Shown here in pieces: positions 99 to 43,764 of a stretch of DNA of 44,763 nucleotides. Position 1 is the stretch's first letter, and each line of letters begins with the position of its first letter. Location of the stretch: positions 1 to 44,763 of the forward strand of contig CANHKZ010000006.1 in the NCBI GenBank assembly GCA_947461425.1, in the 5' to 3' direction. Below the pieces are notes generated by a model. The model saw nothing but the letters and a program-made list of their open reading frames with translations. It was not told the origin of the DNA and did not search any database. Position numbers and translations under genes: made by a program. This DNA comes from Flavobacteriaceae bacterium. GTDB lineage: Bacteria > Bacteroidota > Bacteroidia > Flavobacteriales > Flavobacteriaceae.

Positions 99-137
99 TT
101 GGGTTTATAACTTATTCGGGAACTGAAAACGAAAATC

Positions 138-215
138 CTAGCCCTGATTACAGCGGCATCCTTTTCTGCCGGGGTTCGGCAGGAAAGATATAGCGTAAAG
201 CAGGAATAGCTTCTC
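138..215 (+). ncRNA. Structured dispersed element, candidate Flavo-1-like RNA/repeat (copy 1)
   Basis: TAGCCCTGATTACAGCGGCATCC, then hairpin CTTTTCTGCCG-GGGTT-CGGCAGGAAAG (161-187), then ATATAGCGTAAAGCAGGAATAGCTTC. Shares 5' and 3' motifs with 33264-33409. Confidence 0.55.
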
Positions 216-31083: not shown

Positions 31084-33411
31084 TCAAAACCAAAATCCCA
31101 CACTGAACCAAGTGTATCCTTTGGTATGTTCTGGCGACCAAGAATATTTCACTTCAATAGGACCAATTATTGTTTCCAAACCATAGCCTAGAGCATAGCC
31201 TGAATATTTAGGTAATGAAATCCAATCTTTAGATAAAAACAAATTTTTATCAAGATTTGCAAAATTAGCCGAGAAATTAAGGTGATTTTTCTTGAAAAAT
31301 ACATAATCAATTGTTCCCGATACTTTGATAAAACTATTGGCTGCAAAACTTAAAAAATCATACCCGTAAAAAGGCTTGAAGTTGTTGATAGTATTGTAAC
31401 CATAGCCCCCCATAACAAAATTAAACAAAGGAATCCCTTCGTTTCCAATGGGCAAACCCGCATCTCCTTGAAATTTGAAAGTAAAGGAATTAGAAACTGG
31501 AAACGCTTTTGCAAAATCAGCTTTTAAAACTGAAAAAGGTTTGAAATCATTTTGAAAATCAGAAGCAAATAAAATCGCTTGAAAATCAGAGGAAAAAGAC
31601 CAGCCTCTTTTTGGAAAAAATTTGTTGTCAAAAGAATCGTATTTAATGTACCCAAAACTGCTCCAATAACTAAACTTGTCATTTATCGGATTTGCTATTG
31701 TTTTAGATGAAATTTGTAAATACTTTAATTCTATTCCCGCGCCAAATAAAAATCGTTGTGCAATACCTTTTTGTAAGTATGCCCTAGTAGTAAGATCTAA
31801 ATAATCAACATTGATTTGATTTACGCCGGTATCTAAAATCGATTTGGTGATATCTTGGGTGATATTCCTATTGAACTGACTCAATTGAGATTTAAATCCG
31901 TAACTAAAATTGAACCCATTATCTACATAATAATCTAGATTGTATCTGAAATTATCTCCTAATATAATATCTAGCGAAGCAAGATCATTTTTAAATAAAG
32001 TGTTTTTACGTGTAATGTTGACTAGAATGGCGCTTTTAAATAATTCATCGTAATGCAATCCTAATTTTAAATAGGTTTTTATTGGATTTTCTGATAATTC
32101 TAATTGCAATTGTTCTTCTAGCTCATTTTTTTTAAAAGAATAACTAATGGAACTGAAATTCTCTGTAGCTTGAATGGTATTAATCCCTGATTCTAAATGA
32201 CTATAAGTAATTTGTTTACCAGGTTTGAACCCTAACTTACCCAAAACATAATCATTAGTGAGCGTACTCAATTTACTGCTGTTAATTTGTGTGAATTTCA
32301 AACTATACAAAGAAATAGGCAATTTCGGTTTCTTAAAATAATTTTGATCATTAGCTAGAACTTTCAATTTTTCATAAACAGCAAAAGCCGCTTCTTCTCC
32401 TCGTTGAATAATTTCTTTTCCTCGATCAAATGAAAGCACTCCAAAGTTTTTAATATCAGGGGTAATATAAATATCGGTTCCTTTTATTTTATTTTTCATT
32501 TTTTCGATGGAGTGTAAATTGGTGATTTGAACCAAAATTTTTGTTGCATTTTTCAGCTGGGTTTTATCCCACAATCCGTCTTGGACATCAACCCCTATAA
32601 TTAAATCTGCTCCTAAATTTTTAACCTCATCAACGGGAAAATTATTAGCAACGCCTCCATCAATTAGTAATTGACCATCAATTTCAATCGGGGTAAATAA
32701 GGTTGGAAATGCAGCACTCGCTAACATGGCTTGTGCCAAATTACCTTTGTTGAGCAACACTTGTTGACCAGTTGCAATATTGGTTCCTATACAAATAAAA
32801 GGAGTGGGTAATTGATTGAAATCGTTTACCTGTCGCACATGTCGTGTAAGTCGACTTAATAAATTGAAGTTGTAAAGTCCTTTAGAAAGCGCTTGCGGAA
32901 TGCCTATTTTGAAATTACTAAAAGGTAGCGATATAGCATACGATTCATCATTTCGTTTTTCATAAAAACTCTTGGCTGACCTCGGAATGTAATCGTTTAG
33001 TAATTCATTAAAATTAGTTTTATGAAAAATAGAATCTATTTGACTAGCGTTATAACCTGAAGCATATAAACCGCCAACAACAGCACCCATACTAGTTCCT
33101 CCTATATAATCAATTTTTAAACCCGCCTCTTCAATTACCTTTAAAACCCCAATATGAGCAAATCCTTTGGCTCCTCCGCCACTTAATACCAACCCTATTT
33201 TAGGTCTTTTTTGCTCTTGGGCAAAAGTATTTTGAAAACTAGATAAGTACAGTGCCGCAAATAGCAAGCCCCAGATGGAAGTGGAAAGCGCCGAAAGAAC
33301 AAAGTCTATTTTTTCTTGAAAAAAAAGAGCGACAACGGTAGCTCCTTTTTTTTCCTTAGAAAAAAAGAATTTTGAAAGAGGACTTGGAACGGACAGCTGG
33401 GATAGGCTCAT
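31084..33411 (-). CDS. Patatin-like phospholipase with C-terminal Omp85/surface-antigen barrel (PlpD-like); N-terminal ~50 aa questionable
   Basis: LVLSGGGAKGFAHIGVLKV, GGTSMGAVVGG, DGGVANNFP; POTRA-like region and barrel ending YTWFSVGFWF. Confidence 0.88.
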   Translation of the reverse strand: MSLSQLSVPSPLSKFFFSKEKKGATVVALFFQEKIDFVLSALSTSIWGLLFAALYLSSFQNTFAQEQKRPKIGLVLSGGGAKGFAHIGVLKVIEEAGLKIDYIGGTSMGAVVGGLYASGYNASQIDSIFHKTNFNELLNDYIPRSAKSFYEKRNDESYAISLPFSNFKIGIPQALSKGLYNFNLLSRLTRHVRQVNDFNQLPTPFICIGTNIATGQQVLLNKGNLAQAMLASAAFPTLFTPIEIDGQLLIDGGVANNFPVDEVKNLGADLIIGVDVQDGLWDKTQLKNATKILVQITNLHSIEKMKNKIKGTDIYITPDIKNFGVLSFDRGKEIIQRGEEAAFAVYEKLKVLANDQNYFKKPKLPISLYSLKFTQINSSKLSTLTNDYVLGKLGFKPGKQITYSHLESGINTIQATENFSSISYSFKKNELEEQLQLELSENPIKTYLKLGLHYDELFKSAILVNITRKNTLFKNDLASLDIILGDNFRYNLDYYVDNGFNFSYGFKSQLSQFNRNITQDITKSILDTGVNQINVDYLDLTTRAYLQKGIAQRFLFGAGIELKYLQISSKTIANPINDKFSYWSSFGYIKYDSFDNKFFPKRGWSFSSDFQAILFASDFQNDFKPFSVLKADFAKAFPVSNSFTFKFQGDAGLPIGNEGIPLFNFVMGGYGYNTINNFKPFYGYDFLSFAANSFIKVSGTIDYVFFKKNHLNFSANFANLDKNLFLSKDWISLPKYSGYALGYGLETIIGPIEVKYSWSPEHTKGYTWFSVGFWF
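33264..33409 (+). ncRNA. Structured dispersed element, candidate Flavo-1-like RNA/repeat (copy 2), antisense to the patatin gene 5' end
   Basis: AGCCCCAGATGGAAGTGG (33267-33284), long A/T-rich hairpin with GAGC...GCTC core (about 33308-33366), GGAACGGACAGCTGGGATAGGCTC (to 33409). Confidence 0.55.
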
Positions 33412-33416
33412 AAAAA

Positions 33417-35210
33417 TTATTTGGTAATGTAAAAGTCGGTAATTTTTTTGGCTTTTGATAGCCCAACCACCTCAGAAATTTCTTTTTCGGTGGCTAACTT
33501 TAATCTTTTTACGCTTTTAAAGTGCTGAATTAAAGTCGTCATAGTTTTTTCTCCAATCCCCGGAATGGATTCTGTAGACGAATTAAGGGCGGCTTTGCTC
33601 CGTTTGTTCCGGTGATGGGTAATCCCAAAACGGTGCGCTTCATTACGCAATTGCTGAATAACTTTAAGCGTCTCAGACTTTTTATCCAGGTAGAGCGGGA
33701 TGGAATCGCCGGGATAAAAAAGTTCTTCCAAACGTTTTGCAATGCCGATAATCGTAATTTTTCCTCGCAAACCTAAGTCATCAATACTCTTTAAAGCCGA
33801 AGACAATTGTCCTTTTCCGCCGTCAATGATAATCAGCTGTGGCAAGGGTTGGTTTTCGTCCAAAAGGCGTTTGTATCTTCGATAGACCACCTCCTCCATA
33901 GAAGCAAAATCATTAGGCCCTTCGACTGTTTTTATATTGAAATGGCGGTAGTCTTTTTTACTTGGTTTTCCATCTTTGAAAACCACACAAGCCGAAACAG
34001 GATTTGTTCCCTGTATATTGGAGTTGTCAAAACATTCGATGTGTCGGGGTTCTAAAGGCAGGCGCAAATCTTTTTTCATTTGAGCCATAATTCGGTTCAC
34101 GTGACGATCTGGATCTACAATTTGCAATTGTTTTAATTGTTCGATTCGGTAGAACTTAGCGTTGCGAATGGACAAATCTAAAATGTGTTTTTTATCGCCC
34201 AATTGCGGCACGGTGATTTTAATGTTCTCCCCCAAATCAACTTCAAAAGGAACAATAATCTCTTTAGACAACAACTGAAACCGTTCTCGCAATTCAATGA
34301 TGGCCAATTCAAGTAATTCCTCGTCGGTTTCTTCTAATTTCTTTTTGATTTCCATCGTATGAGAACGAATAATCGAACCGTGAGAAATTTGTAAAAAGTT
34401 TATATAAGCTGCACTTTCATCTGAAACAATCGAAAACACATCAATGTTCGTAATTTTCGGATTGATAATCGTAGAACGCGATTGATAATTCTCGAGAATT
34501 TCTATTTTTTCTTTGATTTTTTGAGCTTCTTCAAAACGCATTTCTTGGGCTAATTCAACCATCAGGCGTTTGAAATCTTTCCTACTCTCTTTGAAATTTC
34601 CTTTTAGAATTTCGCGAATAGCATCGACTTGTTTTTGGTAGTTGGAAATGCTTTCGTATCCTTCGCAAGGTCCTTTGCAATTGCCAATATGATATTCTAA
34701 ACAGACTTTGAATTTTTTAGTTTCAATGTTATTAGCACTCAAATCATAATTACAAGTTCGCAACGGGTACAATTCTTTGATCAAGTCTAAAATGGTAGAT
34801 ACGGTCTTGAAACTAGTGTACGGTCCAAAATATTCTGAACCGTCTTTGACCATTCGCCGAGTGGAAAAAATACGTGAAAAAGGTTCTTTCTTAATACAGA
34901 GCCACGGATAACTCTTATCATCCCGCAACAAGACATTGTAGCGCGGTTGCAAGGTTTTGATTAAATTATTTTCCAATAAAAGCGCATCCGTTTCGGTAGG
35001 GACAACAATGTGTTTGATAGTCACAATTTTCTTGACCAAAACATTTGTTTTGGCTGTATCGTGAATTTTATTGAAATAAGACGAAACCCTTTTTTTTAGA
35101 TTTTTGGCTTTGCCTACATACAAAATTTTCCCTTCCTTATCATAGTATTGATAAACTCCCGGATTGTCCGGTAAGGTTTGTATTTGTAAAGCAATGCTTG
35201 GTGGCGTCAT
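33417..35210 (-). CDS. uvrC: Excinuclease ABC subunit C
   Basis: LPDNPGVYQYYDKEGKILYVGKAKNLKKRVSSYF; ECFDNSNIQGTNPVSACVVFKDGKPSKKDYRHF; IIDGGKGQL; HhH C-terminus; start at ATG 35210. Confidence 0.96.
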   Translation of the reverse strand: MTPPSIALQIQTLPDNPGVYQYYDKEGKILYVGKAKNLKKRVSSYFNKIHDTAKTNVLVKKIVTIKHIVVPTETDALLLENNLIKTLQPRYNVLLRDDKSYPWLCIKKEPFSRIFSTRRMVKDGSEYFGPYTSFKTVSTILDLIKELYPLRTCNYDLSANNIETKKFKVCLEYHIGNCKGPCEGYESISNYQKQVDAIREILKGNFKESRKDFKRLMVELAQEMRFEEAQKIKEKIEILENYQSRSTIINPKITNIDVFSIVSDESAAYINFLQISHGSIIRSHTMEIKKKLEETDEELLELAIIELRERFQLLSKEIIVPFEVDLGENIKITVPQLGDKKHILDLSIRNAKFYRIEQLKQLQIVDPDRHVNRIMAQMKKDLRLPLEPRHIECFDNSNIQGTNPVSACVVFKDGKPSKKDYRHFNIKTVEGPNDFASMEEVVYRRYKRLLDENQPLPQLIIIDGGKGQLSSALKSIDDLGLRGKITIIGIAKRLEELFYPGDSIPLYLDKKSETLKVIQQLRNEAHRFGITHHRNKRSKAALNSSTESIPGIGEKTMTTLIQHFKSVKRLKLATEKEISEVVGLSKAKKITDFYITK

Positions 35211-35326
35211 TTTTTGTTGGCTCGAATTAGTTTCAAATTTACGAATTCCATCTTTGCAAATCAAAATCAGTGACTTTCTTTTACAACGCAAAAATTAATA
35301 CTACTTTTATATTCTATTTTCTTGCA

Positions 35327-43039: not shown

Positions 43040-43125
43040 CAAATTATGAATTTGCTTGGCTACTTTAGTTTATAAACTTTGCGCCCTTGTGTCCCCGCCT
43101 GCGGAAGTCAGGTTTGCGGCGAAAT

Positions 43126-43404
43126 CTAAAACCAATGCTTTTGACCCACTTGATAAATATGATAAAACTCTTCATCTGATTTTGTCAAATAAATAATTCC
43201 TTCGATCAATCCAATTAAACTAGCAAATCCGCAGGTAACAATCGTTAGTATTATTTGAACTATTCCGGCTTGAGTATAGCCTAATACAAATTTGTGAATT
43301 CCTAAAGAACCTACTAAAATTGCTAAAATACCTGAAACTAATTTTTTGTTTTCAGGTTTTGGAGTTACTTGGGTAGTAAAATCTCCGTTTGAAGTGTTTT
43401 CCAT
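43126..43404 (-). CDS. TM2 domain-containing protein
   Basis: KKLVSGILAILVGSLGIHKFVLGYTQAGIVQIILTIVTCG...GLIEGIIYLTKSDEEF. Confidence 0.9.
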   Translation of the reverse strand: MENTSNGDFTTQVTPKPENKKLVSGILAILVGSLGIHKFVLGYTQAGIVQIILTIVTCGFASLIGLIEGIIYLTKSDEEFYHIYQVGQKHWF

Positions 43405-43482
43405 AATTAAGATTTGGTTTTTATTAATGAAGTTAAAAATAATTAAAAATCACGATCAAAAAACAAAAACCAATAAAAAAAT

Positions 43483-43764
43483 CTAAAACCAATGCTTTTG
43501 ACCCACTTGATAAATATGATAAAACTCTTCATCTGATTTTGTCAAATAAATAATTCCTTCAATCAATCCAAATATTGAGGTTAACACTCCGCAACTACAA
43601 ATACTCAAAACTAGCCAGATTATACCCGTGCTAGTATACCCCAAATAAAATTTATGAATCCCAAATGGCGCCAATAAAATAGCAAACAGGCCACAGGCTA
43701 CTTTCTTATTATTCTGAAATTGAGGTGTTGGAGTATTCCAAGCTTCTTGTTTTATAGTTTCCAT
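43483..43764 (-). CDS. TM2 domain-containing protein (tandem paralog)
   Basis: KKVACGLFAILLAPFGIHKFYLGYTSTGIIWLVLSICSCG...; identical C-terminal 27 aa to the neighbour. Confidence 0.9.
   Translation of the reverse strand: METIKQEAWNTPTPQFQNNKKVACGLFAILLAPFGIHKFYLGYTSTGIIWLVLSICSCGVLTSIFGLIEGIIYLTKSDEEFYHIYQVGQKHWF

Follow-up and report, generated by a model that had tools for sequence, protein, structure and literature searches.

How does a gene for an exported phospholipase come to have a structured repeat right after its start codon, and is that repeat read as protein, kept as nucleic acid, or both? The question is raised by a 44,763-nt stretch of DNA from a Flavobacteriaceae bacterium (GenBank assembly GCA_947461425.1, contig CANHKZ010000006.1; hereafter the window). 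Here, a patatin-like phospholipase ORF with a C-terminal Omp85_2 barrel (31084..33411, minus strand, 775 aa; Pfam) has its codons 2-48 antisense to a 143-nt long-loop repeat of Flavo-1 type (33267..33409, plus strand, the strand as in Rfam Flavo-1).

The repeat and its relation to Flavo-1

The bounds of the element, 33267-33409, were fixed by alignment with other copies. It carries an apical palindrome (33301..33372), identified as a self-complementary match, which comprises an inner hairpin with a GAGC...GCTC core and the covarying helices 5 and 6. An Rfam cmscan matched Flavo-1 (RF01705) at 33263-33407 on the plus strand with 27.9 bits (E 5e-4), below the gathering score of 42 for that family, and long-element orthologs reached 29.3 and 38.2 bits, also under this score. 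All arm positions of the Flavo-1 consensus are nevertheless aligned in the window element, and the Flavo-1 pairing pattern is present. Our own model R1, built from 18 other copies in the same genome with the patatin copy excluded, retrieves the patatin copy with 29.6 bits (E 2.6e-4). Because its Rfam score lies below the gathering cut-off, we call the element Flavo-1-related, not Flavo-1.

An initial annotation, made from the letters of the window, had described the sequence at 33264-33411 accurately. It had also taken the element for the second of two copies. The element is a real repeat, with a second long copy, 76% identical, elsewhere in the assembly (C20:17438-17579), which also holds 20 Flavo-1 matches; the supposed first copy in the window, however, is a canonical short-loop Flavo-1 RNA in an intergenic position (136..211, plus strand; RF01705, 69 bits, E 3.3e-13). 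This canonical Flavo-1 is the relative within the window, where neither an exact nor a 3-mismatch search found a second copy. The further proposal that the element supplies the start codon of the patatin gene did not hold, since only the terminal G of the ATG (33409..33411, minus strand) overlaps it.

The patatin gene and the uvrC-patatin junction

Pfam matches in the patatin ORF are limited to PF01734 (Patatin, residues 74-262) and PF19143 (Omp85_2, residues 434-775), with no match to PF13018 (ESPR). The closest solved relative is PlpD (PDB 5fqu; E 6e-62, matching residues 68-352). Its upstream neighbour, uvrC (33417..35291, minus strand; Pfam), runs in the same direction, and the patatin ATG lies 5 nt behind the uvrC stop. 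Codons 49-65 (33217..33267, minus strand; LLFAALYLSSFQNTFAQ) encode the hydrophobic core and the end of a signal peptide, as judged by hydropathy, and align with the MKK...FSQ signal peptides of orthologs without the element. The sole alternative in-frame start before the mature protein is a TTG at codon 49 (33265..33267, minus strand), directly after the element. Elsewhere in the window, a 96-nt direct repeat, 98% identical (43122-43217 and 43479-43574), corresponds to the ends of two short adjacent ORFs on the minus strand, 92 and 93 aa long.

We compared this arrangement across orthologs, keeping 80 of 196 related stretches and adding 60 whole genomes, which gave 101 uvrC-patatin junctions once identical ones had been removed. 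The long element is present in 16 of these junctions, a form shortened in frame in nine, and a canonical Flavo-1 in seven, the last placed several codons further in and read in a different frame from the long element. Canonical scores at the patatin N-terminus include 81.8 bits (L103), 80.4 (L126), 76.8 (L051), 71.3 (L119), 67.9 (L109) and 44.8 (L115). No element was recognised in the remaining junctions; most of them begin directly with a short signal peptide of MKK type, and other inserts are present in a few. In most orthologs, with or without the element, the patatin ATG follows the uvrC stop by 3-16 nt, and the ATG therefore belongs to the gene. The F. hydatis-type group departs from this spacing, with ~380-600 nt between the uvrC stop and patatin.

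Some junctions have features of their own. A uvrC-patatin gap of several hundred bases is seen in L026, L058, L063, L076, L035, L036, L041 and L042, and that of L035 opens with a small ORF resembling a signal peptide. In L102, L106 and L125, which lack the element, a different short repeat, of GCCTATTGCC type, encodes the signal peptide and gives AYCLLPIA. Repeats appear to be captured readily at the uvrC-patatin junction.

In all 32 junctions that bear an element, the frame is open from an ATG through the signal-peptide core to the mature protein, including the nine from which the hairpin has been deleted in frame. In every case the hydrophobic core follows the element, and positive residues outnumber negative ones ahead of the core. 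For four of the 16 long-element orthologs, the first ATG is the only in-frame start. Since the repeat immediately follows the start codon, it probably forms the translated leading part of the export signal, and the pattern of open frames suggests translation through the element into patatin. A separate sample of 200 genomes contained 24 in which the long extension is part of a frame of ~780-820 aa; the other copies in that sample, aside from a second captured gene described below, have short open frames or internal stops.

Selection on the element and conservation of its fold

Divergence was measured over 14 patatin copies of equal length (91 pairs). The mean pS of the element is 0.20, compared with 0.73 for uvrC and 0.74 for the patatin core, and its value is below those of the flanking genes in 91/91 pairs. 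Synonymous divergence jumps at the element edge, from 0.06 to 0.64 in the pair L060/L028 and from 0.00 to 0.44 in L026/L058, and the codons immediately after the element show normal divergence. With a pN of 0.19, the pN/pS ratio of the element is ~1 and the three codon positions vary alike, a pattern that is not of the protein-selection type and gives no sign of selection on the peptide itself. In the 5' arm of the shortened copies, pS is 0.50 and pN 0.33.

Base pairing has been retained in both coding and dispersed copies. Among the 14 coding copies, 97.1% of pair cells are kept and compensatory change is seen in 12/44 pairs (44 cells; 0/500 shuffles), the pairs being common to related species and the cells not independent events; helices 2-4 covary across these copies. 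Among 55 representatives of the dispersed copies, 93.7% of cells retain a 40-pair fold, and 31/40 pairs show compensatory change (0/500 shuffles). Folded as a single sequence, the window element did not give a significant result (z -1.35), and the mRNA fold of the window copy alone was no better than shuffled sequence (z -0.85). The low synonymous divergence, the pN/pS of ~1 and the compensatory changes together indicate that the sequence has been maintained for its nucleic-acid fold, not for its peptide, with its reading frame open.

Dispersed copies and the history of capture

A DNA search with the long-element consensus found matches in 43/61 Flavobacterium genomes; the highest number in any of the few genomes scored was 15. 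We extracted 78 distinct copies outside patatin, of which only one overlaps a predicted ORF of at least 120 aa (L202); the remainder lie between genes, in many cases immediately after the upstream gene. Most are ~70-83% alike to the consensus of the patatin copies, and the frame used in patatin is open in 22 of the 70 non-coding dispersed copies. The downstream gene has the same orientation as in patatin at 58 dispersed copies and the opposite one at 18, with orthologous copies kept in the count. With regard to mobility, junctions without the element exist, but inspection by eye revealed no target-site duplication, and several copies occupy the same loci across species.

The second long copy of the assembly (L002 1501-1643; G000:C20:17438-17579) lies before alaS and is divergent from an M23-type peptidase gene, and long copies precede alaS in at least nine other genomes. 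A transcribed structured 5' element without an Rfam match has been described upstream of alaS in F. psychrophilum (PMC9723704).

In a tree of 92 element copies, those at patatin form one clade (SH-aLRT 98) and the capture is therefore ancient. The clade includes one non-patatin copy (L137 1498-1639; G036:C1:689603-689741), which is intergenic and located ~13 kb from the element-less patatin of its genome. On the host tree, the long element is scattered, and L056/L060/L028 fall within an element-less clade that shares a different uvrC tail; this scatter could have arisen through several losses or through one local recombination. The short Flavo-1 copies at patatin appear to represent a separate capture because their offset and frame differ.

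These results bear on what the initial annotation had made of the junction. Its suggestion that the repeat sits at the 5' end of patatin and reads as coding sequence is borne out by the open frame across element-bearing orthologs. Two findings that could have spoken against it did not: orthologs without a recognisable element lack the ~50-aa extension and generally have a short signal peptide of the MKK type, and copies of the segment occur throughout the genome. The idea of a recent oddity harming the gene finds no support, the capture being old, common to many species and open in frame in all of them. Overall, the earlier interpretation is partly supported.

Patatin is not the only gene involved. 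In three genomes (L251, L252 and L253; G068, G146 and G198, respectively), the long element lies behind the ATG of another secreted protein and ahead of its signal-peptide core, giving the N-terminus MSxFLLSIxSNCAKTFFSNDKKRASxVAFFxQEKIDFSHNWLSISIRA. Pfam matched only F5/8 type C in this protein, which we take to be glycosidase-like, and most of its orthologs lack the element. L278 and L279 may be diverged forms, and L281 a shortened form, of this second capture. G062 (M3-type peptidase) and G001 also have long open frames, but these were dropped as candidate captures because the likely starts lie after the element, and G198:C53 was rejected for a frame of only seven codons.

Interpretation and competing explanations

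We consider it likely that an old Flavo-1-related repeat with a conserved fold forms codons 2-48 of patatin and is translated from the ATG, with a hairpin that may tune initiation. The comparison of copies points clearly to a single origin of those at patatin, an open frame, constraint at the nucleotide level and compensatory changes. According to this explanation, the structured repeat would have inserted in an ancestral Flavobacterium so as to separate the ATG of a Sec signal peptide from its hydrophobic core. Ribosomes would start at the ATG behind the uvrC stop and run through the hairpin, and the element-derived peptide may serve, or be tolerated, as a long positively charged n-region. 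The hairpin beside the start codon may in turn tune patatin initiation, perhaps by ribosomes finishing uvrC. A nearby uvrC stop would allow such coupling; the 380-600 nt that intervene in the F. hydatis-type group mean that it cannot be general. Flavobacterial initiation has been found to depend on features other than the Shine-Dalgarno sequence (PMC9723704).

It is quite unlikely that the start has been misassigned, with the element an untranslated 5' leader and the real start a non-ATG codon such as the TTG at codon 49. A leader would suit the intergenic position of nearly all dispersed copies, often upstream of a co-oriented gene, and at two Flavo-1 copies in other genomes the frame happens to be open into the following gene, whose likely start comes after the copy; L024/L025 share with the window gene a TTG after the element. 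However, between the element and the mature protein, ATG, GTG and TTG are all absent in six of the 16 long-element orthologs, a start at the window TTG would leave the signal peptide without positive charge, and the frames remain open even after deletion of the hairpin. We also think it unlikely that the element is a neutral or selfish passenger that owes its low divergence to recent re-insertion, gene conversion or horizontal transfer and not to selection. The scatter on the host tree could be read in this way, including the three copies in the element-less clade, where local recombination is possible. Against such turnover, the patatin copies, with one exception, group in a clade separate from the dispersed copies, most dispersed copies are only ~70-83% alike to the patatin consensus, the codons right behind the element have diverged normally, and its base pairs change in compensatory fashion.

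Production of a Flavo-1-type small RNA from the plus strand, acting as an antisense regulator of patatin, is very improbable. Rfam lists Flavo-1 as an sRNA on this strand, and at strand-neutral pairs read on the Flavo-1 strand, G-T mismatches exceed A-C mismatches by 28:8, or by 8:3 among non-redundant copies; as a means of assigning the strand, this G-U asymmetry proved weak and was set aside. The 58:18 bias of downstream genes, by contrast, favours the opposite strand (orthologous copies included), and in F. psychrophilum Flavo-1 matches occur on either strand of transcribed regions, and many matches lie outside such regions (PMC9723704). Returning to the translated and folded repeat, we tentatively suggest, as a possibility that we hold somewhat less readily than its alternative, that one stretch has two functions, as a cis-acting mRNA initiation element and as a translated n-region, and that the family has been recruited repeatedly, in long form and as canonical Flavo-1 at patatin and in long form at the secreted glycosidase-like gene.

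Few predicted bacterial RNA families are as common as Flavo-1, for which no function is known; a transcriptome study of F. psychrophilum gave no clear clue to it (PMC9723704). A Flavo-1 relative at a fixed site in many species, with its fold under measurable selection and its frame open, provides a concrete locus at which the function of that fold can be addressed. A non-coding repeat can also become part of an export signal, and the start codons of genes that have captured such elements may be mis-called.

Comparison with known systems

The long element shares with the Flavo-1 RNA family (RF01705; Weinberg et al., 2010, PMC2864571) two conserved outer arms, the outer stem and the internal-loop pattern, as well as a dispersed, chiefly intergenic distribution in Flavobacteria. 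It differs in its length of 142 nt rather than 76, in its conserved covarying inner hairpin and, for the copy in the patatin gene, in its position within a coding region. The papers found to name Flavo-1 are its founding list, a review table and a study that notes overlap with transcribed regions but no function, and we found no report of coding capture.

PlpD, a type Vd patatin autotransporter, likewise has a patatin domain followed by an Omp85-type barrel, and the match to its structure (residues 68-352 only) leaves out the element-derived N-terminal extension. The ESPR (PF13018) of type V autotransporters likewise extends the N-terminus of an outer-membrane or secreted protein ahead of an ordinary Sec signal peptide, but it has no sequence relation to the element-derived extension and is reported to be absent from type Vd proteins, the class of PlpD (PMC8151025).

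Closer parallels come from repeats within genes. The Rickettsia palindromic elements (RPEs) are hairpin-forming repeats of ~105-150 bp found in frame within protein genes (PMC2229807, PMC10969869), and the patatin element resembles them in all three respects. It also has the RPE- or MITE-like traits of non-coding copies elsewhere in the genome and an open in-frame reading into the host gene. RPEs belong to other organisms, have another sequence and occur within many genes, whereas the long element was found in only two gene families, always at the very start of an exported protein. At locus YPO1552, the small Yersinia palindromic repeat (YPAL/RU-2) supplies a portion of a signal peptide (Delihas review, PMC2229807); YPO1552 is a short putative protein in two species, while the patatin element belongs to a conserved phospholipase in many species and, unlike YPAL/RU-2, comes with evidence of hairpin conservation inside the coding region. 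In-frame palindromic repeats and a repeat-derived signal peptide have thus been reported, in Rickettsia and Yersinia respectively; to these our study adds evidence for a long subfamily with a covarying inner hairpin, for its capture, and for retention of its fold inside a coding region.
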